This document shows, in pieces, positions 138 through 60,793 of a stretch of DNA of 64,000 nucleotides (its first letter is position 1; every line of letters begins with the position of its first letter). Position numbers and translations under genes: made by a program. Source of the stretch: Microbacterium testaceum StLB037 (GTDB lineage Bacteria > Actinomycetota > Actinomycetes > Actinomycetales > Microbacteriaceae); contig NZ_FNJN01000007.1 in assembly GCF_900104345.1 (NCBI RefSeq), positions 62,001 to 126,000 of the forward strand, written 5' to 3'. Under the pieces are notes generated by a model. That model did no database searches. It was not told the DNA's origin and saw only the letters and a program-made list of their open reading frames with translations.

Positions 138-779
138 ATGCCCCGCATCGCCGTCATCGGAGGCACCGGCTACGCCGGCAGCCACATCGTGACCGAAGCC
201 GTGCGCCGCGGCCACACCGTGGTCTCGGTCGCCCGCTCGGTTCCGGCCGAGCGCATCGAGGGAGCGACCTACGTCGAAGGCACCGTGCTCGACGTCCCCG
301 GGCTCGTCGCCGAGCTCGAGGGGGTCGACGTGGTCGTGTCGGCCGTGGCCCCCCGCGGCGACATGGAGGGCAAGCTGCGCCCCGCGATCGCCGAGCTCGT
401 GGCCGCGCTCCCCGACGGCGTCCGCATCGGCGTCGTGGGTGGCGCGGGTGGATCGCTGGTCGCCGAGGGCGGCCCGCGCCTGGTCGACACCGCCGAGTTC
501 ACCGAGGAGTTCAAGCCCGAGGCCCTCGAGGCGTACGGCATCCTCGAGGACCTCCAGGCCGACGACACCGGTCGCGACTGGTTCTACATCCACCCCGCCG
601 GCGGCTTCGGCGCGTGGGCTCCGGGGGAGCGCACCGGGTCGTACCGCGACGGCGGCGACGTGCTCGTCGTCGACGACGAAGGCAACTCGTTCATCGGCGG
701 TGCCGACTTCGCGATCGCGGTCCTCGACGAGATCGAGAACCCGAAGCACACGCGCGAGCGCTTCACCGTGGGGTACTGA
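138..779 (+). CDS. NAD(P)-binding oxidoreductase (YwnB/NmrA-like SDR)
   Basis: A 213-residue single-domain Rossmann protein. The nucleotide-binding loop GGTGYAG lies at residues 8-14, straight after the first beta strand, as in atypical short-chain dehydrogenases of the YwnB/NmrA type often annotated as Rrf2-linked NADH-flavin reductases. There is no classical YxxxK catalytic pair, so it may be a redox sensor or flavin/quinone reductase rather than a dehydrogenase; the substrate is unknown. The frame is open back to the window edge, but ATG 138 is chosen because GAAAGGA sits 8-14 nt upstream and the Rossmann motif begins immediately after it. It is transcribed alone and faces the DUF4032 gene across a strong hairpin. 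Confidence 0.8.
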   Translation: MPRIAVIGGTGYAGSHIVTEAVRRGHTVVSVARSVPAERIEGATYVEGTVLDVPGLVAELEGVDVVVSAVAPRGDMEGKLRPAIAELVAALPDGVRIGVVGGAGGSLVAEGGPRLVDTAEFTEEFKPEALEAYGILEDLQADDTGRDWFYIHPAGGFGAWAPGERTGSYRDGGDVLVVDDEGNSFIGGADFAIAVLDEIENPKHTRERFTVGY

Positions 780-793
780 GCCCGCGAGACACC

Positions 794-835
794 GAGGCCG
801 TGGCATCCGGGATCGAATCCGGATGCCACGGCCTC
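794..835. terminator. Bidirectional hairpin between convergent genes
   Basis: A perfect 17-bp stem (794-810 with 819-835) and an 8-nt loop lie between the two convergent stop codons. There is no clear T-run. The two arms each carry one copy of the dispersed word GGCATCC/GGATGCC. Confidence 0.75.
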
Positions 836-873
836 CGTCGTTCCGGGCGCGCGGTGCCCGGCCCGAGGAGCGG

Positions 874-2196
874 TCAGACCAGGTCGCGCCAGTCCACCGC
901 GTCGGTGTCGGTCGTGGGGACCTCACCGGTTTCGGGAGCGTCGGCGTCGGAGACCGTCGGCAGCGACATCGTGTCGGTGGGCGGGCCCATCACGGTGGCC
1001 TCGTCGCGACGGTGACGCAGGACGTCGTCGATGTACGAACTCACGACCTCGGCCAGGGGCACCGAACGACCGCGCGCCTGCGACATGTACCAGCGGTGTT
1101 CGAGTACCTGGTGGAACACCTCGGCGGGCTCGAGCTTGGCGCGCAGGTCCCACGGGATCGCCATGACGATCGGCTCGAACACGCGGGTGAGCCACTCGTG
1201 CGCGACCATCTCTTCATCGGCGCCGAGGCGTGACACGCGGGCCCGGAACTCGTCCAGGTCGTTGAGCAGTCGACGGGCCTGGTTCTCTTCGACATCGAGG
1301 CCGGTCAGACGGAGCAGGCGGCGCTGGTGGTGTCCGGCATCCACCACCTTGGGTTGGATCGACACCTTCGTGCCGTCGCTGGCCGTGCGGATCGACATCT
1401 CGCCGATGTCGAAGCCGAGGGCGTTCAACCGATGCACGCGCTCGGTGATGCGCCACGACTCGTCGACGGCGAAGGACTCCTTGTCGGTGAGAGCCCCCCA
1501 CAGCGAGTGATACGACGAGACGAGACCGTCGGCGATGGCCACGGCATCCACTCCGCCCTCGAGGCGGCCCCCGGCTTCGAGATCCATGATCTCGCCGGCG
1601 ATGTTGATGCGGGCGATGTCGAGATCGTGCGCACGCTGACCCGGCGTCAGGCGGTTGCCGTGCAGCTCACCCGTCTCGGCGTCGACCAGGTACGCGGCGA
1701 ACGCGCCGGCGTCGCGGCGGAAAAGGGTGTTCGACAGCGAGACGTCGCCCCAGTAGAAGCCCACGTTGTGCAGACGCACCAGCAGCACGGCCAGGGCGTC
1801 GACGAGGCGCGTCGCGGTGTGCGGGCGGAGCACCTGCGTGAACAGGGCACGGTAGGGGAGCGAGAAGCGCAGGTGCGCCGTCACGAGCGCGGCGGGGAGC
1901 GGGCGACCCGAGGCGTCGGTGCGACCGGCGATCACCGCGACGCGGTCGACGCAGGGGGCGTCGAGACGGTCGAGGTTGCCGAGCATGTCGTACTCGCGCC
2001 GTGCCATCTCTTCGGTCGTCTCCTTGATGGCGACGACCCGACCCGACAGGTTGGCGAAGCGCACGAGGTGCCGCGAGATGCCCTTCGGAAGCGCCACGAT
2101 GTGGCTGCTGGGCCAGTCGGCGAGGCCGGTCGACCAGGGCAGCTGCAGGAGGCCCGGGTCGACGGTGCTGGCCGTGATGCTGAGGGATTCGGACAC
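874..2196 (-). CDS. DUF4032 protein with WaaP/LPS-kinase-like fold
   Basis: A 440-residue protein matching actinobacterial DUF4032 proteins, whose N-terminal half resembles the atypical kinases of the Kdo/WaaP group. The catalytic-loop-like segment WGDVSLSNTLF is followed by YLVDAETGE, corresponding to the H/W-G-D...N loop and the metal-binding D of kinases. An invariant-looking Lys in AIKETTEEMARRE may be the ATP lysine. The C-terminal half is the DUF4032 region, and the last 40 residues are low-complexity. The start is GTG with CGGAGG upstream. It lies 80 nt downstream of the ABC ATPase on the same strand, so the two are probably one operon. The substrate is unknown. Confidence 0.75.
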   Translation of the reverse strand: MSESLSITASTVDPGLLQLPWSTGLADWPSSHIVALPKGISRHLVRFANLSGRVVAIKETTEEMARREYDMLGNLDRLDAPCVDRVAVIAGRTDASGRPLPAALVTAHLRFSLPYRALFTQVLRPHTATRLVDALAVLLVRLHNVGFYWGDVSLSNTLFRRDAGAFAAYLVDAETGELHGNRLTPGQRAHDLDIARINIAGEIMDLEAGGRLEGGVDAVAIADGLVSSYHSLWGALTDKESFAVDESWRITERVHRLNALGFDIGEMSIRTASDGTKVSIQPKVVDAGHHQRRLLRLTGLDVEENQARRLLNDLDEFRARVSRLGADEEMVAHEWLTRVFEPIVMAIPWDLRAKLEPAEVFHQVLEHRWYMSQARGRSVPLAEVVSSYIDDVLRHRRDEATVMGPPTDTMSLPTVSDADAPETGEVPTTDTDAVDWRDLV

Positions 2197-2276
2197 GGGT
2201 ACCTCCGGGGGAAACGGTGCGGCGCGCCCCCGACCCGACGGATCGGGATCGAGGACGCGCCGCGTCGAAGCGTGGG

Positions 2277-3380
<1,104 letters not shown>

Positions 3381-3592
3381 GTTTTCTTCTCCTTCACCGG
3401 CAGGTACGTGCCGGACGATCCGTAGTGAATGGAATGAACGGGGGCGACCCCGTGCGCCCGACGTTGGACGCAGGGTCAGTATCGCACGTGTCTGGTCATT
3501 TCTCAGCCAGCCTGGCTACCATCGATGCTCGGTCGCCCCACCCGCGCGGCCCCCCTGATTTCATGCGGCATCGTCCGTGCCCGGAAGGTTTC

Positions 3593-4573
3593 ATGTCCAA
3601 CGACCAGTCACCGAATGTGCCAGCAGAACGCGACCGCCGCGAGGCGGTGCGCGAGAAGGCGCAGCAGGTCAAGGCGAAGCAGACGCGGTGGCGTATCGTG
3701 CGCCGCTCGCTGCTGGGCGTGGGCGCCGTCGCCGTGATCGCGGTCGCCGCGGTGGGAGTCTCGTTCGCCCTGAACTCCCGCGAGGCCCGCTCGCAGGCTC
3801 TCCCCGACGCGGCGACCGACGACGGCTTCGTGATCACCAACGCCTCGCAGGTGGCCGACCCCCTTGCCGACCAGACCGTCGACGGCAGCGCCGCCACCAC
3901 GTCGGCCCAGGCCACTCCTCCCGGAGACGCGCCCGCGCCCACCGCCGAGGCGACGCCGGAGCCCACGGGCACGGCCGCTCCCGTCGACATCCGCGTGTAC
4001 GTCGACTACATGTCGGCCGAGGCCCGCGAGTTCCAGTCCGCGAACGCCAGCCAGCTGTCGAAGTGGGTCGGAGACAAGGCCGCGACCCTCACCTATTACC
4101 CCGTGGCGATGTTGACGTCCAAGTCCAACGGCACGAAGTACAGCCTGCGTGCGGCCGGTGCCGCCGCCTGCGTCGCGACCCACTCGTCCGACCGGTTCTT
4201 CGCGTTCAACCACGAGCTGCTCACCAACCAGCCCGCTGTCGATTCCGACGGCTACAGCGACCAGCAGCTCGCCGACATGGCGCAGGGCGCGGGCGTGAGC
4301 GACATCGGCACGGTGCGCGACTGCATCGAAGACGAGACCTACACGGCCTGGGCGAAGGCGGCGACCGATCGCGCCATCAAGGGGCTGCCCGGCACGAAGG
4401 GGCAGGCGCTGACGGCGACCCCGACCGTGCTCGTCAACGGCACCGAGTACGTCGGGAATATGGACGACGCGAAGGAGTTCGCCCAGTTCGTACTCACGGT
4501 CGACAGCAACGCGTACTACTCGACCGCCACCCCGACGCCGTCGACCACCCCGTCGACGACGCCCGCGGGCTGA
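3593..4573 (+). CDS. Membrane-anchored DsbA-fold protein lacking CXXC
   Basis: A 326-residue protein: a charged cytosolic N-terminus, one membrane helix (about residues 38-60), a Pro/Thr/Ala-rich linker, then a DsbA/thioredoxin_4 domain. After the first strand VDIRVYVDY, where family members carry a C-P-Y-C motif, this protein has MSAEAREFQ, so both redox cysteines are gone. The cis-Pro loop TPTVLVNG and the overall length are kept. Two other Cys (in AAACVATH and RDCIED) may form a structural bond. It cannot be a normal disulfide oxidase and may be a chaperone-like or binding homologue. ATG 3593 is selected over the upstream frame start because it begins the conserved hydrophilic N-terminus. 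The C-terminal tail is Thr/Pro-rich. Confidence 0.78.
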   Translation: MSNDQSPNVPAERDRREAVREKAQQVKAKQTRWRIVRRSLLGVGAVAVIAVAAVGVSFALNSREARSQALPDAATDDGFVITNASQVADPLADQTVDGSAATTSAQATPPGDAPAPTAEATPEPTGTAAPVDIRVYVDYMSAEAREFQSANASQLSKWVGDKAATLTYYPVAMLTSKSNGTKYSLRAAGAAACVATHSSDRFFAFNHELLTNQPAVDSDGYSDQQLADMAQGAGVSDIGTVRDCIEDETYTAWAKAATDRAIKGLPGTKGQALTATPTVLVNGTEYVGNMDDAKEFAQFVLTVDSNAYYSTATPTPSTTPSTTPAG

Positions 4574-4615
4574 TTCGATCCCTCGAAGAGGCCTGTGGTG
4601 TGCGATTCTGGTCGT

Positions 4616-4993
4616 ATGAACGAGAAGCTTGAGGACTCCCCGCCGCGGCGGTCCCTGGCGCAGCTGAAGGTTTGGGTGCAGGAGTTCCGTGAGCAGGGGC
4701 ATCTGTTCGCCGGCCAGCTGAAGGTCGTCGAGCAAGAGGACGCCGACAGTCAGGACACCGGTCTCGTGGTGATGAACCTGATGAACGCGCGCGCGTCGAT
4801 CTATATGCAGCCCAAGGGCTACGACGAGCCGCTGTGGGAGGCGACGTTGACGTCGCGTCCCGACGATCTCACCCTCACGCCGCACGAGATGGCGAGCCTG
4901 GCCGCCGAACTCGTCGTCGCGGGCAACCTCTGCTCTTTTCTGCAGTGGAAGTCCCTCGAGTGGGACCGCGAGAGCGGAACCCACGCCGTCTGA
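4616..4993 (+). CDS. Conserved hypothetical protein, paralogue A
   Basis: A 125-residue soluble protein of unknown function, no signal peptide. It is a close paralogue of the gene at 5594: both begin with EDSPPRRS, share DTGLV, PLWE and HE(M/I)ASLAAELVV, and end with the identical FLQWKSLEWDRESG. No enzyme motif is recognised. ATG 4616 has no ribosome site; a -10-like GATTCT (4604-4609) lies 6 nt upstream, suggesting a leaderless transcript, and the paralogue alignment supports this start. Confidence 0.75.
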   Translation: MNEKLEDSPPRRSLAQLKVWVQEFREQGHLFAGQLKVVEQEDADSQDTGLVVMNLMNARASIYMQPKGYDEPLWEATLTSRPDDLTLTPHEMASLAAELVVAGNLCSFLQWKSLEWDRESGTHAV

Positions 4994-5021
4994 CGCGTCG
5001 AGAGCGGCCCGCCCGCCGCTC

Positions 5022-5027
5022 TAGACT
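5022..5027 (+). promoter_or_regulatory. -10 box of tRNA-Thr
   Basis: TAGACT lies 28 nt before the tRNA and matches the TAGNCT form seen at many starts in this window. No good -35 is visible. Confidence 0.45.
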
Positions 5028-5054
5028 CGTCCATCGAGACGCTCCCCGTCTCAC

Positions 5055-5127
5055 GCCGGCTTGGCGCAATTGGTAGCGCACCGTACTTGTAATACGGGGG
5101 TTGCAGGTTCAAGTCCTGTAGCCGGCA
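5055..5127 (+). tRNA. tRNA-Thr (anticodon TGT)
   Basis: A 73-nt cloverleaf. The acceptor stem GCCGGCT pairs fully with AGCCGGC; D stem GCGC/GCGC; anticodon stem CCGTA/TACGG with loop CTTGTAA, giving anticodon TGT (reads ACA and wobble Thr codons); T arm GCAGG/CCTGT with loop TTCAAGT; discriminator A. CCA is not encoded. Confidence 0.96.
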
Positions 5128-5154
5128 CCCCATCCATCCCCTGCGCGGGATCGC

Positions 5155-5460
5155 TCAGATGACGTCGAAGGGCGTGTCGTCGTCGTCGTAGTTGATCGAC
5201 GGCGGCGCCCAGGCGGCCTGTTGCGCATCCGCCGTGTCCTCCTGCAGATGAACCGTCACGACGGAGATGGTGGCCGAGGTGGCGGGGGTGACGAGAATGC
5301 TCAGCTTGCTGCCGTCGTCGGTGGTCACCGTCAAAAAGCCTCCACCCGCGTGGACGGCGGCGAGGACCTGACGGCGCAGGTCGTCCGCGTGCTCGAGGGG
5401 CGCGAGCGCGTGCGAGACGCCGTCGACGGCGATCCGCAATCGTTCGATGCTCTGTCCCAT
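5155..5460 (-). CDS. Small conserved hypothetical protein
   Basis: A 101-residue protein beginning MGQSIERLRIAVDG and ending in an acidic stretch YDDDDTPFDVI. A central region (GGGFLTVTTDDGSKLSILV) looks like paired beta strands. Nothing catalytic is recognisable. The frame stays open further upstream, but that part is out-of-frame-like in composition, so the internal ATG at 5460 is preferred. It lies between the two paralogous small genes, on the opposite strand. Function unknown. Confidence 0.6.
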   Translation of the reverse strand: MGQSIERLRIAVDGVSHALAPLEHADDLRRQVLAAVHAGGGFLTVTTDDGSKLSILVTPATSATISVVTVHLQEDTADAQQAAWAPPSINYDDDDTPFDVI

Positions 5461-5593
5461 GACACGCACGGTAGGCGTGTTCCATCGATGCCGGACGGGG
5501 GTTGCCGGAACGGGGGAGCGCGAGGCACACTGCGGGGCGTCAACCCCTGACGGAGTTTCGTCATAACGAACGCCGGAAACGTAAGCTCGGCCC

Positions 5594-6004
5594 GTGACCG
5601 ACGCCGACATCGAAGACTCCCCGCCGCGGCGCTCGCGCGAGCAACTGCAGGTTTGGGTGGACGAGTTCGAAGAGAACGAGCACTGCATCGCGGGCAGCAT
5701 CTCCGTGGCGCCCCAGGAGGACGACGGGGGAGAGGACACCGGGCTGGTGATCCTGCGCCTTCGGTATGCATCGTCCTCGGTCTACATGAAGCCGCGCGGC
5801 TGGGACGACCCGCTGTGGGAGATGACGATCACTCCGCAGCCCCGGGAACTCGGGTTGTCCGTGCACGAGATCGCCAGTCTCGCCGCCGAACTCGTCGTGG
5901 CGAGCAACCTCTGCACGTTTCTCCAGTGGAAGTCGCTCGAGTGGGATCGCGAGAGCGGCCAGCGAGGAGCCTCCGCAGGCGCGGCGCCCTCGAGCCCCCG
6001 CTGA
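5594..6004 (+). CDS. Conserved hypothetical protein, paralogue B
   Basis: A 136-residue paralogue of the gene at 4616, well over half of the positions matching by eye and the C-terminal core motif FLQWKSLEWDRESG identical. It ends in a short Gly/Ala/Pro-rich extension that paralogue A lacks. The GTG start has no ribosome site; TAAGCT (5582-5587) sits 6 nt before it, the leaderless arrangement also seen for paralogue A. Function unknown; soluble, no membrane segment. Confidence 0.75.
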   Translation: MTDADIEDSPPRRSREQLQVWVDEFEENEHCIAGSISVAPQEDDGGEDTGLVILRLRYASSSVYMKPRGWDDPLWEMTITPQPRELGLSVHEIASLAAELVVASNLCTFLQWKSLEWDRESGQRGASAGAAPSSPR

Positions 6005-6017
6005 CGTCCACGCGGAC

Positions 6018-6220
6018 TCAGCCTCCGTGCGTGGCGGTCCACTCGCGGAACGGCGAGGTCGAATCGTCGACCGGGATCTGCTCCGAGGGCAGGGCGCGTT
6101 CCTCGCCTCGACGATGATCTCGCCGTCTTTCACGATGAGGCAGGCGAAGGGCTTTCCCCCGTTCCGGACGTTCTCCCTGGCGCGGGAGACGGTCAGGGCG
6201 GAGAGCTCGGCGTCGTTCAT
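6018..6220 (-). pseudogene. Nucleoside deaminase remnant with internal deletion
   Basis: The N-terminus (MNDAELSALTVSRARENVR, then PFACLIVKDGEIIVEARN) matches the first about 40 residues of guanine/nucleoside deaminases of the CDA fold. The next segment should hold the zinc motifs HAE and PCxxC but is absent. In the -1-shifted frame the sequence continues as a deaminase-like C-terminal tail (ALPSEQIPVDDS, then PFREWTATHGG and stop). The distance from ATG 6220 to that stop is 203 nt, not a multiple of three. The simplest reading is a deletion of the catalytic middle plus frame loss. The tail assignment is an inference from resemblance. Confidence 0.6.
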
Positions 6221-6290
6221 GGCCTCACCGTAGGCGTTCAGCCCGACGCGGATCGGCCCTTGCCCTTCCCACGGTCGGCGTGCGAGGCGT

Positions 6291-6572
6291 TCACGACAGG
6301 GCCCGCGCCAGAGCGACGAGGAACACCGCCGCCGCGACGATCATGGCCAGGCCCGCCAGCAGAGCCCCGGCGATGGCGAGGGCGCGAAGGGGCCCCCTGC
6401 GGCGGCTTCCGTCCAGGGCGAATAGGAGGGTGCAGACCGAGACCACCAGGACGAGAAGATCGCCGATCAGCCCGGGCGGTGCCCAGACCGAGGTCGCCAT
6501 CGCGACGACCCCCGCGCCCAGCGCGGCGAGGTGCCACGCGTGGTTGCGTGCGGGACGGGAGTCCTCGGGCAC
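6291..6572 (-). CDS. Small membrane protein
   Basis: A 93-residue protein with three predicted hydrophobic helices (around residues 14-30, 34-50 and 62-90), separated by the basic loop DGSRRRGP. It starts with GTG 3 nt after the amylosucrase stop, so it is co-transcribed with it. No family recognised; function unknown. Confidence 0.65.
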   Translation of the reverse strand: MPEDSRPARNHAWHLAALGAGVVAMATSVWAPPGLIGDLLVLVVSVCTLLFALDGSRRRGPLRALAIAGALLAGLAMIVAAAVFLVALARALS

Positions 6573-6575
6573 GAC

Positions 6576-8462
6576 TCAGCGCATCCGCACGCGCAGCCAC
6601 CGCACACCGTGAGGCGCGAGGGTGATTCCGGCACCCAGCCACACGGGCTGCGACGACACCAGGTCGAGCGCCTCCGGTACCAGTCCCGACAGGGTCAGGG
6701 CGTCGACCTCGACCGCCGAGTCGGCGACGTTCGCCAGCACCAGGACCGAGAATTCGCGTCCCGGGCGGAGGAACGAGACGACGGATGCCACGTTCGCACC
6801 GAACGCGATCAGTTCGTTGCCCGCGAATTCCGGCGTCGACCGGCGGACCTCGGTGAGGCGCGAGAGCCGAGAGAAGACGCGACCGGCCGGGGTGCCGGCA
6901 TCCGTTCGATCCTCGTAGTTCTGCGCGGGACGGAAGGGGCGGTTGACCCACCGGCTGTCGTCGGCCTCGTCCGCTCGTTCGGTGTAGGTGTATTCGTTCA
7001 GCTGGGCGACCTCGTCACCGAGGTAAAGCAGGGGGATGCCCCCTGTCGAGAGCGCGAGGGCGTGGGCGAGCACGACCCGGTCTTCGCCCCCGGCGTCTCC
7101 CGCTTCGACCCCGGCCAGCGAGGCGGTGGTTCCCGTGACGCGAGCGTCTCCCGTGCGCGGGTTCTCTTGGAACGGCACGCCGCGCGCGAACGAACCCTCC
7201 GCCCGGCCGACGTAGAAGTCGTTGAGGAAGCGGCGGTGCGGGGACGCGTCGATGCCCAGCTCGGCGGCATCCTCGTCGGCGAAGGTCCACCCGATGTCGT
7301 CGTGACTGCGCACGTAGTTGACCCACGCGGTGCCGGCGGGGAGGGCGTGGCGGCGCTCGAGCGCCTGCTGCAGGAGGCGGCCGTCGCGGGTGGCGAGAGC
7401 CTCCCAGGTGAGGGCCATCTGCAGCGGGTTGTACGAGATCTGGCACTCGTCCGGCGAGATGTACGAGATCACCTCGTCGGGGTGCACGATGGCCTCCGAC
7501 TTGAACAGCAGGCCCGGGGCCGCCATGCGCAGGACCGCGTTGAAAGCCTGCAGCAGCAGGTGCGCCTCGGGGAGGGACTCGCAGGTGGTGCCGAGCTGTT
7601 TCCAGATGAAGGCCACGGCATCCATGCGGAGGATCTCGACGCCCTGGTTGGCGAGGAAGAGCATCTCGCCCGCCATCGCCTCGAAGACAGCGGGGTTGGC
7701 GTAGTTGAGGTCCCACTGGAAGTGGTAGAACGTCGCCCAGATCCAGCGGCCGTCGTCGAGCTGGACGAAGGAACCCGGGTGATCGTCGGGGAAGATCTCG
7801 CGCGTGGTCCGCTCGTAGGCGTCGGGCATCTCGCGGTCGGGGAAGATCAGGTAGAAGTCCTCGTACCCCGCCTCGCCCGCGAGGGCCTTCTGCGCCCACT
7901 CGTGCTCGTTGCTCGTGTGGTTGAAGATGAAGTCGACCACGAGCGAGATCCCCGCCCGGCGCAGCTCGGTCGCGAGGGCGGCCAGCTCGTCCATCGTTCC
8001 CAGCGCGGGGTTCACGCGCCGATAGCTGGACACCGCGTAGCCCCCGTCACTGTTGCCCTCGGGGCTTTCGAACAGCGGCATGAGGTGCAGGTAGGTGAGA
8101 CCCAGCTCGCGGAAGTACGGGATCGATTCCCGGATGCCGTGGAGTCCGCCCGCGTACCGGTCGACGTAGCAGACGCCCCCGAGCATGCCCTCGCTCTCGA
8201 ACCAGCCGGGTGCGCTCTCGCGTTCGCGGTCCAGGGCCTTCAGCGTCCGGGGACGCGCCAGCCACGACGTGCGTGCGAGATCAACGACGGATGCCAGACG
8301 CTCGAGGCCGTCGGGACGCTCGCCGTACAGCCGCGTGAACAGATCGTGCAGGCGCGGAAGGTGCTGCTCGGCATGTGTGAGGAACTCGCGGTCGGTGTCG
8401 GCCGCGCGGAGGTCGTCGATCAGGCGCGAGACGTCGTCGGAGCCGGGGTGGAGCTGGGTCAC
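6576..8462 (-). CDS. ams: Amylosucrase (GH13 subfamily 4)
   Basis: A 628-residue enzyme, the usual length for amylosucrase, which transfers glucosyl units from sucrose to build alpha-1,4-glucan and releases fructose. The GH13 triad is visible: nucleophile Asp281 (ILRMDAVAF), acid/base Glu323 (FKSEAIVHPDE) and Asp388 (RSHDDIGW). An N-terminal helical domain precedes the barrel, and DFIFNHTSNEHEWA is the conserved region I typical of this subfamily. No signal peptide, so cytoplasmic. The GTG start lacks a ribosome site and has a CAGGCT box 7 nt upstream. Sucrose hydrolase is the main alternative, since the two differ by few residues. No sucrose transporter or glycogen genes are adjacent. Confidence 0.85.
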   Translation of the reverse strand: MTQLHPGSDDVSRLIDDLRAADTDREFLTHAEQHLPRLHDLFTRLYGERPDGLERLASVVDLARTSWLARPRTLKALDRERESAPGWFESEGMLGGVCYVDRYAGGLHGIRESIPYFRELGLTYLHLMPLFESPEGNSDGGYAVSSYRRVNPALGTMDELAALATELRRAGISLVVDFIFNHTSNEHEWAQKALAGEAGYEDFYLIFPDREMPDAYERTTREIFPDDHPGSFVQLDDGRWIWATFYHFQWDLNYANPAVFEAMAGEMLFLANQGVEILRMDAVAFIWKQLGTTCESLPEAHLLLQAFNAVLRMAAPGLLFKSEAIVHPDEVISYISPDECQISYNPLQMALTWEALATRDGRLLQQALERRHALPAGTAWVNYVRSHDDIGWTFADEDAAELGIDASPHRRFLNDFYVGRAEGSFARGVPFQENPRTGDARVTGTTASLAGVEAGDAGGEDRVVLAHALALSTGGIPLLYLGDEVAQLNEYTYTERADEADDSRWVNRPFRPAQNYEDRTDAGTPAGRVFSRLSRLTEVRRSTPEFAGNELIAFGANVASVVSFLRPGREFSVLVLANVADSAVEVDALTLSGLVPEALDLVSSQPVWLGAGITLAPHGVRWLRVRMR

Positions 8463-53739: not shown

Positions 53740-54273
53740 TCAGGCCGAGGCGCGCAGGGTCTCGCCGAGGATCACGTCGCTCTCGAGCGAGAGCAGGTAT
53801 TCCTTCACCTCGGGGTGGCCGCCGTATTCGCCGATCGAGCCGTCGGCGCGGACGACCCGGTGCACCGGGACGACGATCGAGAACGGCGACGACGCGCACG
53901 CCGTTCCCACCGCGCGGGCTGCTCGCGGGGCCCCGGCCATCATCGACACCTCGCCGTACGAGGCGACTTCGCCGTAGGGGATCTCGAGGGTGGCCTCGAG
54001 CGCAGCGCGGGTGAATCCGCGGGCGAAGCGCCAGTCGAGGGCGACATCGAAGGCCCGTCGCGTCCCGTCGAAGTACTCCTCGAGCTGCGAGACCAGGGGG
54101 TGGTCCGTGGGCTGATGGTGCTCGGGGACGACCCCGAGACGGTGCGCGATCTCGGCGCGCGCGAGCTCGAGACCGTCGAGGGCCACATTCAGACGCACGA
54201 GGGCGTCGTCGACGAAGGTCAGCAGGATCGGCCCGACGGGGCTGTCGTATTCGGTGCTGGTGACTCTGTTCAT
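53740..54273 (-). CDS. Alkyltransferase-like protein (Ogt family, active Cys replaced)
   Basis: A 177-residue member of the O6-alkylguanine-DNA alkyltransferase family with full N-terminal and DNA-binding domains. The Arg finger region reads YGEVSMMAGAPRAARAVG and the C-terminal GEYGGHPEVKEYLL is normal. The active-site motif PCHR is PVHR: codon GTG encodes Val137 instead of Cys, and the preceding NP is SP. It cannot accept an alkyl group. It fits the alkyltransferase-like (ATL) class, which bind O6-alkylguanine and hand it to excision repair; known ATLs often have Trp here. Confidence 0.85.
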   Translation of the reverse strand: MNRVTSTEYDSPVGPILLTFVDDALVRLNVALDGLELARAEIAHRLGVVPEHHQPTDHPLVSQLEEYFDGTRRAFDVALDWRFARGFTRAALEATLEIPYGEVASYGEVSMMAGAPRAARAVGTACASSPFSIVVPVHRVVRADGSIGEYGGHPEVKEYLLSLESDVILGETLRASA

Positions 54274-54434
54274 ACGCTCATCCTCATGACCGTGCCCGGG
54301 GCGTGCGCCGCGATCGCGCGCGAATGGGGAGGATCTCGCCGACTCCCTACCTGGGGAGGAAGAGCCGGTGGCGCGGCGTGTCGCCGATTACCGCGAAACT
54401 CGGGCCCGCTGCGCACGATCCCGCACTGCCCGGC

Positions 54435-54440
54435 TTAGTC
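54435..54440 (+). promoter_or_regulatory. -10 box of helicase-like gene
   Basis: TAGTCT, 32 nt before GTG 54473; -35 not clear. Supports the downstream start. Confidence 0.4.
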
Positions 54441-54472
54441 TGACAGGTGTGTGGCGAGCTGAGGACGGTGCC

Positions 54473-57400
54473 GTGATCGGCACTGACGGAGACGAGACGG
54501 TGTCGTCCGTCGATCCCGGCGACCTGCGATTGTCGGAACCCGGCATCGTGGTTCGCCACGTGGCCGACCCCGAACGCGACCGGATCCGGTCCGAGGCTGC
54601 GGCTCTCGGCGGACGTTCGACCCTCCTGCGCTTCGACGACGCCCGCGATGCCGGCATCGACATCACGAAGGCGCACCCGGGTTCGCTCCCGCAGTTCATC
54701 ACGGGTCGCGCGACGATGCTGTCGAACCTCTTCCGCGACGAGGTGGCCCTGCGCACGGCCCGCATGGCCGCCGAGCGCATCACGGCGAAGAACGTCGAGC
54801 TGCGCACCGCGCGCGGCCTCGAGCCCGTGCACCTCGCGGTGGGCCTGTCGGCGTGGAAGATCGGGGGAGTGGAGTGGTCCGCTCCGGTCCTCCTGCGCCC
54901 GCTCGCCATCCGCCGCCACCACGGTGACTTCGAACTGAAGCTGCACGGCGCGTTCGTCATGAACCCCGAGCTCGCTCGCGCGTTCCGCACGCACCTCGGC
55001 ATCCAGATCGATCCCGCGGCTCTCGCGGGCCTCGCCTACGACCAGGGCGTGTTCAAGCCGCAGCCGGTCATCGACCACATCCGCCGCCTCACTTCGCACG
55101 TGCCGACCTTCGTCGTGCACCCGCGTCTGGTGATCTCGTCGTTCGCCGACGTCGGATCGGGTATGGCTCGCGACACGCACGACCTCGACCACACCCTCTT
55201 GAACGCGCTCGCCGGTCACCCCGACGACCGCGCGCGCATCACGGTGCGTCGCGACGACCCGCAGGTCGTGAGCCCCGACGAGCGCACTCCCGCTGCCGAC
55301 ACCCTGCTCCTCGACGCGGATGCCGAGCAGGAGCGCGTCCTCGCCCGCATCGCCGCGGGGCAGTCGCTCGCCGTGCACACCCTGCCCGGCACGGGCGGCA
55401 CGCAGACGGTCATCAACGCGATCGGGCAGCTCGTCCACGACAACAAGCGCGTGCTCGTGGTCAGTGCCCGTCGCTCGACGCTCGACGGCATCCGTCACCG
55501 TCTGGCCGGAGTCGGCCTCACGGGTCTCGCCGTCTCTCCGAACCACGTGCGTCGCGACCTCATCCGCGCGATCGGTCGCAACGAGAAGGCCGACCAGCCG
55601 AAGGTCGCCGAGATCGACGACGCCCTCGTGCGTCTGCGCACGGTCCTGCGCGACTACCGCTCCGCCGTGACCGAGCCGCACCTGGCGCTGGGCGTCTCGG
55701 CGCTCGACATCCTGCGCGCGCTGACGTCGTTGGCATCCACTTCTCCCGCTCCGTCGACCGAGGCCCGCTTCGATCTCGCGACCCTCGAGAGACTCGCCGG
55801 ACGACGGGATGCCGCGGCCCGGGCGCTCGCGATGGCCGCGCGCCTCGGCGAGTTCCGCTTCGGGCCCGACGATTCGCCCTGGTACGGTGTCAGCTTCTCG
55901 CGGACCGAGGACGCGCGTGCGGCGCACGATCTCGCGGGCAAGCTCCACAGCAGCGACGTTCCTCGTCTGCTCGAGCGCGGGTACGAGCTCATCGCGCAGA
56001 CGCGCATGCGCCCGTTCCAGACGGTGTCCGAGCTCGGGTCGTACCTGAAGCTCCTGCAGGGCATCCGCGAGTCGCTCGATCGCTTCAGCCCGAGTGTCTT
56101 CGAGCGTCCGCTCGGCGAGCTCATCGACGCGCACTCGCCGCGCCGCGACGCCTCCGCGATGAGCGGTCCCAACCGTCGTCGCCTCAAGCGGCTGTCGAAG
56201 GAGTACGTGCGCCCGGGCGTCCACGTGCCCGACATGTACGAGGCGCTCGTGCGCATCCAGCAGCAGCGTACGGAGTGGCAGCGCGTCGTCGACGCCGGCG
56301 TCACCCCCGAGGTGCCGCTGGGTCTCGCGGACGTCCACGTCGCGTGGCAGCGCACCGACGCCCTGCTCGGCGAACTCGATCAGATCCTCGGCCGTCAGGG
56401 CTCCGAGCGCCTCGCGACCCTGCCCGTGCAGCGTCTCGTGCGCACCCTCGCCGGTCTCGCCGCGGAGTCGACCTTCTTCGACAACCTCGTCGAGCGCGCG
56501 CAACTGCGTTCCGAGCTCGCGCGCCTGGGTCTCGAGCAGCTCCTCGTCGAGCTCTCGGTGCGCCACGTTCCCGAGGAGCGCGTGGGGGCCGAACTCGAGT
56601 TCGCGTGGTGGCAGTCGGCCCTCGAGCACCTGCTGCGCACCGACCGTGCTCTTCTCGGTGCGAACACGAGCGTCGTCGACCGTCTCGAGCGCGACTTCCG
56701 ACTCGTCGACGAGGCCCACGCCGCTGCGGCCGGCCCGTTGCTCGCCGCTCAGCTCGCGACGCAGTGGCGTATCGGCATCGTCGATCACGCCGACGAGGCG
56801 GCCGCCCTCAAGCGCGTCCTGAAGGACGGCCTGCACACGGCGCAGGAGATGTCGGATGCCGCGCCCACCCTGCTGCGCACGCTCGCGCCGGTGTGGCTCG
56901 CGTCGCCGTACGAGGTTCCCGACGTTCCGACCGATCTCGCGTTCGACGTCGTCATCATCGCGGATGCCGCGGCCCTGTGCCTCGCCGAGGCGGCCCCGGC
57001 CCTGCGCCGGGCTCGCCAGGTCGTGCTGTTCGGCGACCCGGTGGTGCAGAAGCCCACCCCCTTCCGCGTGAGCGCGTCGATCGCCGCCGGCCCCGACGAG
57101 GCCGACGAGGTCCCCTTCGACGAGACCTCGGTCTTCGAGCGCATCGCCGAGCTGCTGCCCGTCGAGACGCTCACCCGCAGCTACCGCGCCGGCGGCGAGG
57201 ATCTCTCGCAGCTGGTGAACGACGCCTTCTACGGCGGAGAGATCGTCTCGCTTCCCTGGGCCGGTTCGTACCTCGGCCGCGGCAGCCTGAGCGTCGATTA
57301 CGTCGAGGGCGGTGTCGGTGCCCCCGACCCCGTCAGCGGCGCGGTCGAGAGCCCCGATGCCGAGGTCGCCCGCGTCGTCACGCTCGTCGTCGAGCACGCC

Positions 57401-58180
57401 GTGAACCGGGCGTCCGAATCGCTCATGGTCGTCACCGCCAGCCGCAAGCACGCCGAGCGCGTGCGTGCCTCGGTCGTGGCGGCGTTGGCCGGACGCTCCG
57501 ACGTCGCCGAGTTCATCTCGAGGGATGCCGCCGAGCCCTTCGCCGTGCTGACGCTCGAGGAGTCCGTGGCCGAGAGTCGCGACCGCGTGGTGTTCTCGCT
57601 CGGCTTCGGTCTCACGCGCCACGGTCGCGTACTGAGCGACTTCGGCGACCTGTCGACGCCCGATGGGGAGCGACTGCTCACCGTCGGGATGACGCGTGCT
57701 CGCCGTTCGATGGTGATCGTGTCGTCGATCCGTCCCTCGGCGTTCGACGACGGCCGCCTCGAGCACGGTGCCGCGACCCTCATGGGCATTCTGGGCAATG
57801 TCGCGTCGCGCAGCCGCGAGACGCGCCTCGAAGACCTCGCCGATCCGCTGACCCGCGCCCTGGCGCGCGAGCTGCGCAGACTCGGCATCGAGGTCGACGT
57901 CGATTACCGCGGGTTGCTTCCCCTCGTCGCTCGCTACCAGGGCAAGGCGGTGGTGGCCGAGAGCGATCCCGAGACCATCGGCGAATCCCTCCGCGAGACC
58001 CTCCGTCTGCGGCCGCAGATCCTCCGCCGCCTCGGCTGGCACTACGTGCGCGTGCACGCGTTCGATCTGTACAGCGACCCCGCGGGCGTGGCATCCCGTA
58101 TCGGGGAGCTCCTGGGGATCGCTCCCGACGACGCGGTCGCCCCCGATGCGACCACCGAGTCGCTCGATCTCCCCGACTGA
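54473..58180 (+). CDS. Large SF1 helicase-nuclease homologue with degenerate active sites
   Basis: A 1235-residue protein (from GTG 54473, GAGGAC 6 nt upstream; the frame is open to 54368). Its layout matches the SF1 helicases related to DUF4011/Hhe-type proteins with a C-terminal Vsr-like nuclease. Motif I should be GTGKS/T but is GTGGTQT (Gly309 for Lys). Motif II should be DEAS but is ADAA (Ala830-Asp831). Motif III GDP and motif VI MTRARRSMVIVSS remain; motif V is changed (AESRDRVV). The nuclease end keeps PQILRRLGWHYVRVHAFDLYSDP but has lost the catalytic Asp (LLPLVA) and the His after ESD. Probably a DNA-binding pseudoenzyme. Role unknown. Confidence 0.82.
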   Translation: MIGTDGDETVSSVDPGDLRLSEPGIVVRHVADPERDRIRSEAAALGGRSTLLRFDDARDAGIDITKAHPGSLPQFITGRATMLSNLFRDEVALRTARMAAERITAKNVELRTARGLEPVHLAVGLSAWKIGGVEWSAPVLLRPLAIRRHHGDFELKLHGAFVMNPELARAFRTHLGIQIDPAALAGLAYDQGVFKPQPVIDHIRRLTSHVPTFVVHPRLVISSFADVGSGMARDTHDLDHTLLNALAGHPDDRARITVRRDDPQVVSPDERTPAADTLLLDADAEQERVLARIAAGQSLAVHTLPGTGGTQTVINAIGQLVHDNKRVLVVSARRSTLDGIRHRLAGVGLTGLAVSPNHVRRDLIRAIGRNEKADQPKVAEIDDALVRLRTVLRDYRSAVTEPHLALGVSALDILRALTSLASTSPAPSTEARFDLATLERLAGRRDAAARALAMAARLGEFRFGPDDSPWYGVSFSRTEDARAAHDLAGKLHSSDVPRLLERGYELIAQTRMRPFQTVSELGSYLKLLQGIRESLDRFSPSVFERPLGELIDAHSPRRDASAMSGPNRRRLKRLSKEYVRPGVHVPDMYEALVRIQQQRTEWQRVVDAGVTPEVPLGLADVHVAWQRTDALLGELDQILGRQGSERLATLPVQRLVRTLAGLAAESTFFDNLVERAQLRSELARLGLEQLLVELSVRHVPEERVGAELEFAWWQSALEHLLRTDRALLGANTSVVDRLERDFRLVDEAHAAAAGPLLAAQLATQWRIGIVDHADEAAALKRVLKDGLHTAQEMSDAAPTLLRTLAPVWLASPYEVPDVPTDLAFDVVIIADAAALCLAEAAPALRRARQVVLFGDPVVQKPTPFRVSASIAAGPDEADEVPFDETSVFERIAELLPVETLTRSYRAGGEDLSQLVNDAFYGGEIVSLPWAGSYLGRGSLSVDYVEGGVGAPDPVSGAVESPDAEVARVVTLVVEHAVNRASESLMVVTASRKHAERVRASVVAALAGRSDVAEFISRDAAEPFAVLTLEESVAESRDRVVFSLGFGLTRHGRVLSDFGDLSTPDGERLLTVGMTRARRSMVIVSSIRPSAFDDGRLEHGAATLMGILGNVASRSRETRLEDLADPLTRALARELRRLGIEVDVDYRGLLPLVARYQGKAVVAESDPETIGESLRETLRLRPQILRRLGWHYVRVHAFDLYSDPAGVASRIGELLGIAPDDAVAPDATTESLDLPD

Positions 58181-58187
58181 GCGCGTG

Positions 58188-58424
58188 ATGAGCGACACCC
58201 CGCACGATGCCGTCCCCGAGGCGGACGTGACGAGCGGTCGCGGCACCGAGCGTCAGCCGGTCGTCCGCGTCCGCGGTGCTCGTCGGGCGCGCCTTCTCGC
58301 CGCCCCGGGCACGACCGCCGAACCGGCGCCGGCCGATGATCCCGCGCGCGGGACGGGTGCGCGGCCCGCGGCATCCGGCCCCAACGACGAGCGCATGATG
58401 CGCGACGTCCCGCCGCACTACTGA
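58188..58424 (+). CDS. Small hypothetical protein
   Basis: A 78-residue disordered-looking protein, Ala/Pro/Arg-rich, with the motif VVRVRGARRARLL and the end NDERMMRDVPPHY, which looks conserved rather than random. It starts 7 nt after the helicase-like gene, so it is in the same operon. Function unknown. Confidence 0.6.
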   Translation: MSDTPHDAVPEADVTSGRGTERQPVVRVRGARRARLLAAPGTTAEPAPADDPARGTGARPAASGPNDERMMRDVPPHY

Positions 58425-58499: not shown

Positions 58500-58919
58500 T
58501 CAGAGTTTGTTCTGGCGCTCCAGCAGGTCGCGGATCTGCACGAGCAGCTCCTGCTCCGTCGGCAGCTTCGGCTCGTCCGAGGCGGGCTCGTTCACCCCGG
58601 CGCGCGCGGCGGCGATGGCCTTCCACCGGTTCATCGGGTAGACGAACACGAGGTAGACGACGATCGCCACGGCGAAGAAGCTGATGATCGCCGAGAGCAG
58701 GGTGGGGAGGGGGAAGACCACTTCCTGCCCGTAGATGCCCGTGATCGTCGGCCCGACCTCGCCGTTCTCGGCGGGCTTGTAGAACACCTCGATCAGCGGG
58801 GTGATGACCGCCGCGACGATGGCGTTGACGACCGCCGTGAACGCCGCGCCGATGACCACCGCGACGGCGAGGTCGATGACGTTCCCGCGGAGGATGAACT
58901 CCTTGAATCCCTTGATCAT
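58500..58919 (-). CDS. mscL: Large-conductance mechanosensitive channel MscL
   Basis: A 139-residue MscL: MIKGFKEFILRGNVIDLAVAVVIG is the N-terminal amphipathic helix and pore helix TM1 (key core DLAVAVVIGAAF), then a periplasmic loop and TM2 (IISFFAVAIVVYLVFVYPMN), and the cytosolic helix LLVQIRDLLERQ. Opens under hypo-osmotic shock. Confidence 0.95.
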   Translation of the reverse strand: MIKGFKEFILRGNVIDLAVAVVIGAAFTAVVNAIVAAVITPLIEVFYKPAENGEVGPTITGIYGQEVVFPLPTLLSAIISFFAVAIVVYLVFVYPMNRWKAIAAARAGVNEPASDEPKLPTEQELLVQIRDLLERQNKL

Positions 58920-58953: not shown

Positions 58954-59223
58954 TCAGGAGGCCGAGGACGGGGCGGACGACTTCGATTCCGACTTCGATG
59001 ATGTCGAAGAACCGGTCGAGCCGCTACCGGACCCGCCGGAGGTGGAGCTGCGGGAGTCGGTGCGGTAGAACCCCGAGCCGTTGAACGTCACGCCGATCGA
59101 TCCGTACTGCTTGCGCACCTCGCCGCCGCACTCGGGGCACTCGGTGAGGGCGGCGTCCGCGAACGACTGGACCGCGTCGAAACGGTGACCGCACTGCTTG
59201 CAGGCGTAGGAGTAGGTGGGCAT
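58954..59223 (-). CDS. FmdB-family zinc-ribbon protein
   Basis: An 89-residue protein: FmdB zinc ribbon MPTYSYACKQCGHRF...CPECGGEVRK (two CxxC pairs), GFYRTD motif, and a Ser/Gly/Lys-rich disordered tail. Probably a regulatory or assembly factor; role unclear. Lies 17 nt after the cyclo-ligase gene. Confidence 0.88.
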   Translation of the reverse strand: MPTYSYACKQCGHRFDAVQSFADAALTECPECGGEVRKQYGSIGVTFNGSGFYRTDSRSSTSGGSGSGSTGSSTSSKSESKSSAPSSAS

Positions 59224-59240
59224 GAGCGTCCTTCGGGTGT

Positions 59241-59837
59241 TCAGGAGGTGTGGGCGGCGAGCGGAAGCGTGCGCGTGGGGGTGACCACGCCCGTGACGGG
59301 CTGGTCGTGCACGTCGCGCGGCACGTCGTCGATGAGCTCGGAGTCGAAGATGACCGCGTACACCGGCGGGCACTTCTCCATCGAGCCGAGGGTCTTGTCG
59401 AAGTAGCCGCGGCCCCAGCCGAGACGCATGCCCTGGTGATCGACGGCGGCAGCCGGGATGATCAGGAGGTCGACGTCGTTGACGGCGATCGGCCCCAGAA
59501 CGTCACCGATCGGTTCGGGAAGCCCGAACAGTCCCTCGGTGATCTCGGTGTCGGGAGTGGCCACGCTCCAGTCGAGCAGACCGTCTTCGCGGGTGATCGG
59601 GAGCAGGACCCGGATGCCGCGCCCCACCGCCGCGCGGACGAAGGCGTGCGTGCCGGGCTCGGTGGGGGTTGACAGGAAACACGAGATGCTGCGCGCGCCG
59701 AGGCGGGCGACGAGGGCGTCGAGCTGCTCTGTGACGCCGGCCGCGGCCACCTCGCGCGCATGGGCGGAGATGGTCTGGCGGCGTTCGCGCAGATCGGCGC
59801 GCAGTGCGCGCTTGGCCTGCTCGATACGATCCGGCAT
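59241..59837 (-). CDS. fthC: 5-formyltetrahydrofolate cyclo-ligase
   Basis: A 198-residue cyclo-ligase (5-formyl-THF to 5,10-methenyl-THF, ATP-dependent). IEQAKRALRADLRERRQ is the N-terminus; VNDVDLLIIPAAAVDHQGMRLGWGRGYFDK is the family signature (core RLGWGRGYFDK). ATG 59837 has a minus-strand TAGACT 6 nt upstream and no ribosome site. Confidence 0.93.
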   Translation of the reverse strand: MPDRIEQAKRALRADLRERRQTISAHAREVAAAGVTEQLDALVARLGARSISCFLSTPTEPGTHAFVRAAVGRGIRVLLPITREDGLLDWSVATPDTEITEGLFGLPEPIGDVLGPIAVNDVDLLIIPAAAVDHQGMRLGWGRGYFDKTLGSMEKCPPVYAVIFDSELIDDVPRDVHDQPVTGVVTPTRTLPLAAHTS

Positions 59838-59899
59838 GCGTTAAGTCTACGGGTGGGCGCGTTACCGGCGGTGTCGTAGGACCCCGCTAAGGTATGCCC

Positions 59900-60793
59900 A
59901 TGCCTCATAAGCCCTTCAAGGCCGTCATCCCGGCCGCCGGACTCGGTACGCGCTTCCTGCCCGCCACGAAGGCGATGCCCAAAGAGATGCTGCCCGTCGT
60001 CGACAAGCCGGCCATCCAGTACGTCGTCGAAGAGGCCACCGGCGCCGGCATCGAAGACGTCCTGATCATCATCGGTCGCAACAAGAACAACATCGCCAAC
60101 CACTTCGACTCGATGCCCGAGCTCGAGGCGAAGCTGCGCGAGAAGGGCGATGACGACAAGCTCGCCAAGGTCGAGCACTCGTCCGAGCTCGCCGACATCC
60201 ACATGGTGCGTCAGGGCGAGCCGAAGGGTCTGGGTCACGCGGTGCTGCGTGCGCGCAGCCACGTCGGCGACCACCCCTTCGCCGTCCTGCTGGGCGACGA
60301 CCTCATCGACGAGCGCGACCCGCTGCTCACCAAGATGATGGACGAGTACGACAAGCGCGGCGGTGCCACCGTCATCGCGCTGATGGAGGTCGATCCCGCC
60401 CACATCCACCTCTACGGCGTGGCCGCCGTCGAGGCCACCGACGAAGAAGACGTCGTCAAGGTCACGCAGCTCGTCGAGAAGCCCAAGGCCGAAGACGCGC
60501 CCTCGAACCTGGCGATCATCGGTCGGTACGTTCTCGGTCCCGATGTCTTCGACATCCTCGAGCGCACCGAGCCCGGCAAGGGCGGCGAGATCCAGCTGAC
60601 CGATGCCCTCGAAGAGCTCGCGACCGGTGGTGGCGACGGCGGCGGCGTGTACGGCGTCGTCTTCCGCGGGCGTCGTTACGACACCGGCGACCGTGTCGAC
60701 TACATCAAGGCGATCGTGCAGCTGGCTGCCGACCGCGACGACCTCGGCCCCGCCCTCCGCCCCTGGTTCAAGGAGTTCGCGCAGGGTCTCTGA
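59900..60793 (+). CDS. galU: UTP-glucose-1-phosphate uridylyltransferase GalU
   Basis: A 297-residue nucleotidyltransferase making UDP-glucose for envelope glycans. The signature AAGLGTRFLPATKAMPKEML and the LGDD metal site are intact. Two ATGs (59894, 59900) are in frame. 59900 is chosen: TAAGGT (59888-59893) lies exactly 6 nt before it as a -10, suggesting leaderless initiation, although TAAGG could also serve as a weak ribosome site. Confidence 0.95.
   Translation: MPHKPFKAVIPAAGLGTRFLPATKAMPKEMLPVVDKPAIQYVVEEATGAGIEDVLIIIGRNKNNIANHFDSMPELEAKLREKGDDDKLAKVEHSSELADIHMVRQGEPKGLGHAVLRARSHVGDHPFAVLLGDDLIDERDPLLTKMMDEYDKRGGATVIALMEVDPAHIHLYGVAAVEATDEEDVVKVTQLVEKPKAEDAPSNLAIIGRYVLGPDVFDILERTEPGKGGEIQLTDALEELATGGGDGGGVYGVVFRGRRYDTGDRVDYIKAIVQLAADRDDLGPALRPWFKEFAQGL

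Follow-up and report, generated by a model that had tools for sequence, protein, structure and literature searches.

How does a gene whose product has lost the residues of its motor come to be kept across a whole bacterial order? The question is raised by a gene of Microbacterium testaceum StLB037 (Microbacteriaceae, order Actinomycetales, class Actinomycetes), which lies in the stretch of 64,000 nucleotides that we analysed (contig NZ_FNJN01000007.1, positions 62,001 to 126,000; hereafter the window). The plus-strand frame at window positions 54473-58180 is open over 1235 codons and starts with GTG, directly downstream of what is, judged by eye, a plausible ribosome-binding stretch. Its product, P0001, is a homologue of the UPF1-like helicase-nucleases of superfamily 1 (SF1), with an intact frame. 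As set out below, this is a real, old and widespread pseudo-helicase-nuclease.

Alignment to relatives shows that P0001 lacks both features by which we recognise a UPF1-like enzyme, the Walker A Lys and the DE of Walker B. Walker A reads 305-PGTGGTQT-312 (PGTGKSQT in relatives), with Gly309 in the Lys column. Walker B reads VIIADAAAL (827-835) in place of VVFDEASQV, with Ala830 in the Asp column and Asp831 in the Glu column, and motif V has VAESRD (1032-1037) where relatives have QGDERD. Motifs III (GDPVVQKPT), IV (YR) and VI (TRAR) are kept. The D...ExD positions of the MTES_1575/Vsr-like restriction endonuclease at the C-terminus, which we placed by alignment to intact relatives, are incomplete: the first Asp is Pro1150, and E1163-x-D1165 and the GW at 1188-1189 are retained. 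A first-pass annotation of this DNA had described every catalytic motif as eroded, which is right for motifs I, II and V and overstated for motifs III and VI and for the nuclease ExD, which stay. It had also pointed to the loss of a nuclease His. That residue is indeed missing, and its absence is not diagnostic, since the motor-intact orthologues L192 and L193 lack it too (the intact, non-syntenic L200 has it). P0001 is almost certainly a pseudoenzyme.

The altered state is fixed in the genus. Our Microbacterium alignment contains 115 rows (L004-L117 and the window, some genomes appearing twice through two fetching routes), and the stretch P305-T312 is identical in all of them, which argues that GTGGTQT is not a product of chance. 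Column 830 of Walker B holds Ala in 74 rows and Val in 41, and column 831 is always Asp. At 45 loci from 45 genomes of other Microbacteriaceae, the Lys column is G, A, L, Y, V, S or I and never K; none of 49 rows from the family has the Walker Lys, and none combines GK[ST] with DE. Outside the family (families are cited by code, f1 to f39, where f1 is Microbacteriaceae and f35 belongs to the same class and lies outside the order), we considered 65 genomes of the order with a readable motif I, hand-picked over 18 families and thus not a random sample; L125 (f13) was excluded because its motif I was unreadable. GK[ST] is present in nine of the 65: both genomes of f5, seven of ten from f18, and none of the 53 from the other 16 families. 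The two motifs are coupled, with DE present in 9/9 rows with GK[ST] and in 0/56 without, and the nine motor-intact rows all have the first nuclease Asp. The P-loop is unrecognisable in f4 (ASGRNGVSS in L218) and strongly altered in f3, f9, f10 and f14, and the gene is kept in these families.

At the same locus in f35, the motor has eroded in another way: the Lys column is Arg in 9/9 loci (L202-L204, L206-L211), and DE is replaced by ED in eight and DD in one. GK[ST] with DE is found in none of the nine.

We inferred a quick maximum likelihood tree of 79 rows after removing the motif columns. The state of the Lys column requires four changes on this tree, three of them forced by well-supported branches. 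The 51 eroded rows of the order form a single clade (Shimodaira-Hasegawa-like approximate likelihood ratio test [SH-aLRT] 100), sister to f5 and f18 (100), and all of these nest in a clade of 62 order rows (SH-aLRT 99). In our judgement a simultaneous regain of all motifs in their outgroup form is not credible, and the ancestor is therefore most likely to have been active. Hence, the ancestral protein probably had a working motor, which was lost early in the order, and f35 apparently lost its motor separately.

The coding sequence is nevertheless under strong constraint. In the closest bin of Microbacterium pairs (6 pairs, synonymous divergence [dS] 0.02-0.3), the median ratio of nonsynonymous to synonymous divergence (dN/dS) is 0.025 (range 0.017-0.103; 0.042 for the neighbouring galU), and in the second bin (72 pairs, dS 0.3-0.5) it is 0.049 (range 0.013-0.372; galU 0.063). 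Neither is close to 1, the value that the first-pass annotation took to speak against a maintained gene. These bins supersede an earlier figure, a median of 0.27 taken across 5926 pairs, most of them distant. We then compared the conservation of the catalytic columns with that of the remaining columns, using 5000 random column sets as reference. In 12 intact rows (including L190, L200 and L205), the catalytic columns are 1.77 times as conserved as the rest, and no random set is as high (0/5000). The ratio is 1.10 in 35 eroded order rows outside Microbacteriaceae (760/5000) and 1.10 in the nine f35 rows (229/5000). Other positions are nearly invariant. In an alignment of 127 rows (intact and eroded, with f35, L200, L201 and L205, and leaving out L190 and five long paralogues), W470 and D825 are found in 127/127 rows, N164 in 126/126 and R568 in 126/127, and a helical insert carries a nearly invariant basic element, RRRLKRLSKEYVRPG. 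The gene is still under purifying selection, for something other than the motor.

We searched for the gene with a profile of 26 rows in genomes at least 95% complete (E <= 1e-60). It was matched in 119 of 120 Microbacteriaceae genomes (75/76 genera), including 11/11 of those of at most 1.6 Mb, the smallest of 0.9 Mb. Across the order the figures are 138 of 139 genomes and 58/58 genera, among them one 0.8-Mb genome of f4. No match at this threshold was obtained in two drafts, G105 of the family (290 contigs) and G452 of the order (580 contigs). Class-wide, 49 of 197 genomes were matched (19 of the order, 19 of f35 and 11 others, several of which have the longer paralogue) and 148 gave no match. 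Measured from stop to stop, the open frames of 119 rows have a median of 1342 codons (range 869-1790). The low dN/dS of close pairs, this near-universal presence and an eroded state common to whole families bear out the earlier proposal of a pseudoenzyme that is maintained, not a pseudogene in decay. The annotation had allowed that intact orthologues would instead mark a one-off decay; such relatives do exist, in f5 and f18, and the loss is old and family-wide. One-off local decay is rejected by the fixed consensus, the dN/dS values and the family-wide loss.

The position of the gene is conserved too. It lies tail to tail with mscL, followed by genes for an FmdB-type zinc ribbon and a 5-formyltetrahydrofolate cyclo-ligase and by galU. 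Counting a locus as conserved when at least one of mscL, fmdB and the cyclo-ligase gene lies downstream on the opposite strand, we found this arrangement at 44/45 Microbacteriaceae loci (mscL 33, fmdB 36, cyclo-ligase 43), 17/22 order loci from other families (mscL 9, fmdB 15, cyclo-ligase 11) and 9/9 f35 loci (mscL 9, fmdB 8, cyclo-ligase 1). Within Microbacterium, mscL is in the fetched stretch at 79 of 80 loci. The locus of the motif-intact order genomes could be read in three of nine (L192 of f5, L193 and L198 of f18; L121 and L227-L231 had too little flank), and it is the same in all three. The gene is thus inherited vertically and belongs to the core genes of the order. Since it is retained almost universally, with a motor that looks dead in most families, the protein probably has an important job that does not need the motor.

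The fold survives the loss in structural models. The AlphaFold2 model of P0001 (63 rows; predicted local distance difference test [pLDDT] 90.5, predicted template modelling score [pTM] 0.80) has two RecA-like domains in a UPF1-like arrangement. Its best VIA match is RNA-bound IGHMBP2 (4b3g; Z 19.5, root-mean-square deviation [rmsd] 4.7, 496 aligned), with UPF1 (Z 18.8), Dna2 (5eax; Z 18.7, rmsd 4.5, 487 aligned) and UvrD (Z 18.4) behind it; by the tool's own criterion IGHMBP2, UPF1 and Dna2 rank as equal. A similar model (pLDDT 86.5, pTM 0.74) is obtained for L218 of f4, an orthologue that has lost its P-loop, again with 4b3g on top (Z 18.6, rmsd 4.5, 471 aligned). The matches span model residues 1-1079 and barely cover the nuclease end. 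A sequence search of solved structures (E <= 1) returned two SMUBP-2 entries alone, with E about 0.005. On these models P0001 shares its fold with the UPF1-like SF1B helicases (IGHMBP2, UPF1, Dna2, senataxin) and differs from them in the missing Walker A Lys and DE, a large helical insert and a fused, weakened nuclease.

The first-pass annotation had offered three roles: a scaffold, an inhibitor of an active paralogue, or a part of a defence or repair complex. The scaffold fits best. We put at somewhat above even the chance that P0001 is, as its sequence leads us to predict, a motor-less nucleic-acid-binding scaffold, RecC/AddB-like in logic, which acts with an active enzyme in trans. Read from sequence, tree and models, its history would begin with a fusion of an active DUF4011/UPF1-like SF1B helicase with a Vsr-like (MTES_1575) nuclease, in a lineage that would also have given the anti-phage proteins ProA and Hhe. 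The ATPase would have died in the ancestor of most families of the order, with the Walker Lys and the DE box lost together, and the nuclease would have degraded in many lineages; the overall fold of the protein would have been kept. The protein may now use the former helicase channel, together with the basic helical insert, to hold or recognise a DNA (or RNA) structure, and could pass that structure to an active enzyme in trans, or regulate this enzyme, in the manner of RecC and AddB with RecB and AddA.

Known proteins provide precedents for such a role. RecC uses an inactivated nuclease domain as a hoop for DNA (PMC1185551) and AddB a helicase-like region for the recognition of Chi (PMC4824097); in the available text of both papers, a dead nuclease or helicase-like domain is kept as a DNA-handling scaffold, as we propose for P0001. 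To judge by its motifs and model, P0001 likewise joins a dead or partial helicase to a dead nuclease-like domain. It differs in having no conserved operon with a motor partner and in its UPF1-like top folds, and the likeness that we propose is one of logic. The accessible part of a study on Deinococcus radiodurans PriA describes a protein that is ATPase-dead, binds DNA and shows evidence of contact with DnaB (PMC4504706), and here too the ATPase was lost in one lineage, intact relatives exist and DNA binding was kept. The role of PriA is known, whereas the loss seen in P0001-type proteins spans most families of an order. PriA is, moreover, a superfamily 2 (SF2) helicase.

Candidate partners of the proposed scaffold would be AdnAB- or UvrD-type proteins, which may qualify because they persist even in the genomes of 0.8-0.9 Mb that keep the gene. 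UvrD-type helicases and PDDEXK_1 proteins were found in 9/9 genomes tested, eight of them of 0.8-1.5 Mb. In most of these, both domains occur on two neighbouring frames of roughly 950-1300 codons, which we take to be AdnAB; the draft G062 had one PDDEXK_1 match only.

Several observations weigh against this scaffold or the history behind it. Because AdnAB is found beyond this order as well, its presence says little for a partnership, and both the partner and the nucleic-acid binding are predictions. No conserved operon partner was found at the loci compared: downstream are the convergent mscL and genes with no evident link, and the upstream gene set is not conserved between families and gives no clue to a partner (ogt is upstream at 78/80 Microbacterium loci and at 0/80 of the loci L146-L225). 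The conserved neighbours were not found at L150, at five of the 22 other order loci (L195, L212, L221, L223, L225, of which L223 and L225 sit on short contigs), or at the intact L190, L200 and L205 and the eroded L201; we take these last four as separate, possibly mobile, relatives. The motor motifs are kept in the nine genomes of f5 and f18, where the motor must therefore still be worth having, and the first nuclease Asp persists in 13 of the 56 eroded order rows. In the approximately unbiased (AU) test, made on 46 rows, grouping the 28 eroded order rows as one clade is not rejected (p-AU 0.142), which leaves the further loss within f18 seen on the tree insecure. We therefore count two losses, in the order and in f35, as supported by the tree, and the third as only favoured. 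The f35 loss rests on SH-aLRT values of the quick tree, which are weaker with long rows present (L224 is flagged). In more distant pairs dN/dS rises above that of galU, with medians of 0.206 (317 pairs, dS 0.5-0.6; galU 0.141) and 0.277 (1999 pairs, dS 0.6-0.8; galU 0.215); we read this as synonymous saturation at a third-position GC content (GC3) of 0.90, which is not proven. Finally, the catalytic columns of 23 Microbacteriaceae rows are 1.45 times as conserved as the rest (0/5000), which suggests that the former pocket has settled on a different consensus there. As the motif VI Arg is also kept at 41/45 loci of the family, this pocket may have some use.

Such a use could be that of a nucleotide-binding clamp, in which the Lys-less P-loop of Microbacteriaceae binds a nucleotide or phosphate ligand without hydrolysis and thereby gates the grip on nucleic acid. 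Besides the conservation just described, PGTGxTQT, GD, SYR and TRAR are largely conserved in the family, and Asp855 is found in 123/127 rows. We consider the clamp unlikely, however, given that the Lys column varies so freely over the 45 loci and that the gene is still kept where the P-loop is unrecognisable (f4) or strongly altered (f3, f9, f10, f14).

The kinship of P0001 bears on another reading, a role in immunity. By threshold, P0001 belongs to none of ProA, Hhe, DUF4011 and MTES_1575. It scores 280.4 bits on ProA (NCBIfam NF058533, cut-off 1500; the intact orthologue L192 reaches 765 bits), 136.9 on Hhe (NF042953, cut-off 2000) and 39.5 on TIGR00376 (cut-off 348.9), and its top PADLOC matches are PDC-S37 (284.9 bits) and Hhe (105 bits). 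Its Pfam matches are sub-threshold: AAA_11 (22 bits) and AAA_12 (20.2), both with a cut-off of 27, MTES_1575 (PF18741; 20.3 bits, gathering score 38.2) and, weakly, Herpes_ori_bp. On MTES_1575, the six scanned relatives other than L141 reach 42.7-121.6 bits. DUF4011 (PF13195) is not matched in P0001 at E <= 1; it passes its cut-off in L192, L193, L200 and L208 and fails in L214 and L218. HEPN_Swt1 and DUF3320 were not found in P0001 by Pfam, and both are present in L141.

L141 is a full-length ProA in the same genome (G000:C7:184000-192500, 368-6880, plus strand, 2171 amino acids) with intact helicase motifs. It scores 1713.9 bits on ProA, above the cut-off, and comprises HEPN_Swt1, DUF4011, helicase, MTES_1575 and DUF3320 domains. 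This order matches the architecture given for MTES_1575 of M. testaceum, a HEPN domain, an SF1 helicase, a Vsr restriction endonuclease and a winged helix-turn-helix, in the available text of PMC3710099.

ProA and P0001 thus have in common the core of DUF4011, SF1 helicase and MTES_1575 nuclease. P0001 is about 900 residues shorter, has lost the motor and nuclease motifs and lacks HEPN_Swt1 and DUF3320, and it is a core gene where ProA is patchy. Hhe, an anti-phage protein with DUF4011, helicase and Vsr domains, has its helicase-nuclease core in the same order; P0001 is far under the Hhe cut-off, its catalytic motifs are lost and its locus is fixed. A part in a defence complex, by ancestry or domestication, is possible. 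The relatedness of P0001 to ProA (280 bits), Hhe (137 bits) and PDC-S37 (285 bits), together with the full ProA in the genome, would suit a domesticated sensor, guard or decoy in anti-phage defence. We give this as little credence as the clamp: P0001 usually occurs as one core copy at a fixed locus and is kept in genomes of 0.8-1.6 Mb, in contrast to the patchy second genes of the superfamily (at least 11 of 120 family genomes at the strict E <= 1e-60; in ten of these the frame has at least 1690 amino acids).

A slightly poorer candidate still is an ATP-independent factor associated with RNA or RNA polymerase, like UPF1/IGHMBP2 or HelD. Among the top folds are RNA-bound IGHMBP2, UPF1, senataxin and Aquarius, and RNA-polymerase-bound HelD is at Foldseek rank 44. 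SF1 fold kinship cannot, however, tell DNA from RNA, because Dna2 and UvrD score so near IGHMBP2, and the C-terminal domain is from a DNase-type family. Inhibition of the active ProA-like paralogue in the same cell (G000:C7), prompted by the intact motifs of that protein, is highly improbable, since a second gene is found in at least 11 of 120 family genomes as against 119 for the pseudo-helicase and, within Microbacterium, in G000 and G007 only of 35 genomes (P0001 as query, E <= 1e-10). No better are a pseudogene on its way out or a slow ATPase with unusual motifs: the Walker Lys, DE and several nuclease residues are lost and one family genome has an in-frame TAG within the matched stretch, but the frames are open across 119 rows, close-pair dN/dS is low, the new consensus is fixed in 115/115 rows and GK and DE are jointly absent in 56/56 eroded order rows.

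No published description of the gene was found among the papers listed for DUF4011, MTES_1575, PDC-S37 and inactive or pseudo-helicases, judged mostly from the listings and with subscription papers poorly covered. Of the papers listed on essentiality, none was on point by title and the start of the abstract, a search on conserved signature proteins returned nothing, and the available text of a study of Micrococcus luteus transformation loci (PMC8467076) shows no link to it. The motor-less scaffold would accordingly point to a core function of these bacteria not found named in the literature searched. Pseudohelicases have so far been known singly (RecC, AddB, Deinococcus PriA and Utp25, a further known case), and here one is near-universal across a bacterial order. 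The motif-intact versions at the same locus in sister families amount to a natural experiment on a motor-less helicase-nuclease, and the protein may be an anti-phage-type protein turned housekeeping. A more far-reaching proposal, which we make tentatively and hold to be rather less probable than the scaffold itself, is that of an order-wide core DNA/RNA-handling factor: a domesticated anti-phage-type helicase-nuclease that apparently lost its motor at least twice in actinobacteria, and perhaps on further occasions, at an orthologous locus, serves as a RecC-like subunit in an undescribed machine for repair, recombination or surveillance, and may be essential even at a genome size of 0.8 Mb.

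Table 1. Features of the gene and its neighbours in window coordinates; residue numbers are those of P0001.
Feature	Position	Strand	Basis
Pseudo-helicase-nuclease gene, 1235 aa (amino acids), GTG start	54473..58180	+	ORF (open reading frame) reading, orthologues
N-terminal DUF4011-like domain, residues 36-270; conserved AHPGSLPQFITGRAT block and N164	54578..55282	+	conservation; DUF4011 in relatives
Ex-Walker A / motif I, PGTGGTQT (305-312), Lys column Gly309	55385..55408	+	alignments
Helical insert (421-780) between motifs I and II; W470 in 127/127 rows	55733..56812	+	model and conservation
Basic element RRRLKRLSKEYVRPG (568-582) inside the insert; R568 in 126/127 rows	56174..56218	+	conservation
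Ex-Walker B / motif II, IIADAAA (828-834); Asp column Ala830, Glu column Asp831	56954..56974	+	alignments
Motif III, FGDPVVQKPT (853-862), kept	57029..57058	+	alignments
Motif V, ESVAESRDRVVFSLG (1030-1044), QGDE lost, RD kept	57560..57604	+	alignments
Motif VI, LLTVGMTRARRSM (1068-1080), Arg kept	57674..57712	+	alignments
MTES_1575/Vsr-like nuclease domain (1120-1220), C-terminal; Pro1150 for first Asp; E1163, D1165 kept	57830..58132	+	profile match, alignments
mscL, convergent downstream neighbour	58500..58919	-	locus comparison
FmdB-type zinc-ribbon protein, conserved neighbour	58954..59373	-	locus comparison
5-formyltetrahydrofolate cyclo-ligase ORF (longest frame), conserved neighbour	59241..59837	-	locus comparison
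Nucleotidyl transferase, here called galU, conserved neighbour	59894..60793	+	locus comparison
O6-methylguanine methyltransferase (ogt), upstream neighbour	53740..54273	-	locus comparison

An antisense frame of 1299 amino acids (window 54347-58246, minus strand) covers the whole gene. We rejected it as the gene because the homology falls on the plus-strand frame, and read it as a high-GC shadow frame. In a 1.4-Mb genome, the copy at G081:C10:13713-17210 has one in-frame TAG in the matched stretch and still an open frame of 1205 amino acids. In one Microbacteriaceae genome, a second copy with intact motifs (L190, G141:C22) accompanies the core-type copy at G141:C29. A Microbacterium-type copy with 77% identity occurs in a record titled Planococcus sp. 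(L056, JASDDH010000007.1), which is probably a mislabelled or mixed assembly. Lastly, mscL has the highest close-pair dN/dS of the six genes measured in Microbacterium (medians 0.24 and 0.37), which may reflect a variable part of the protein.

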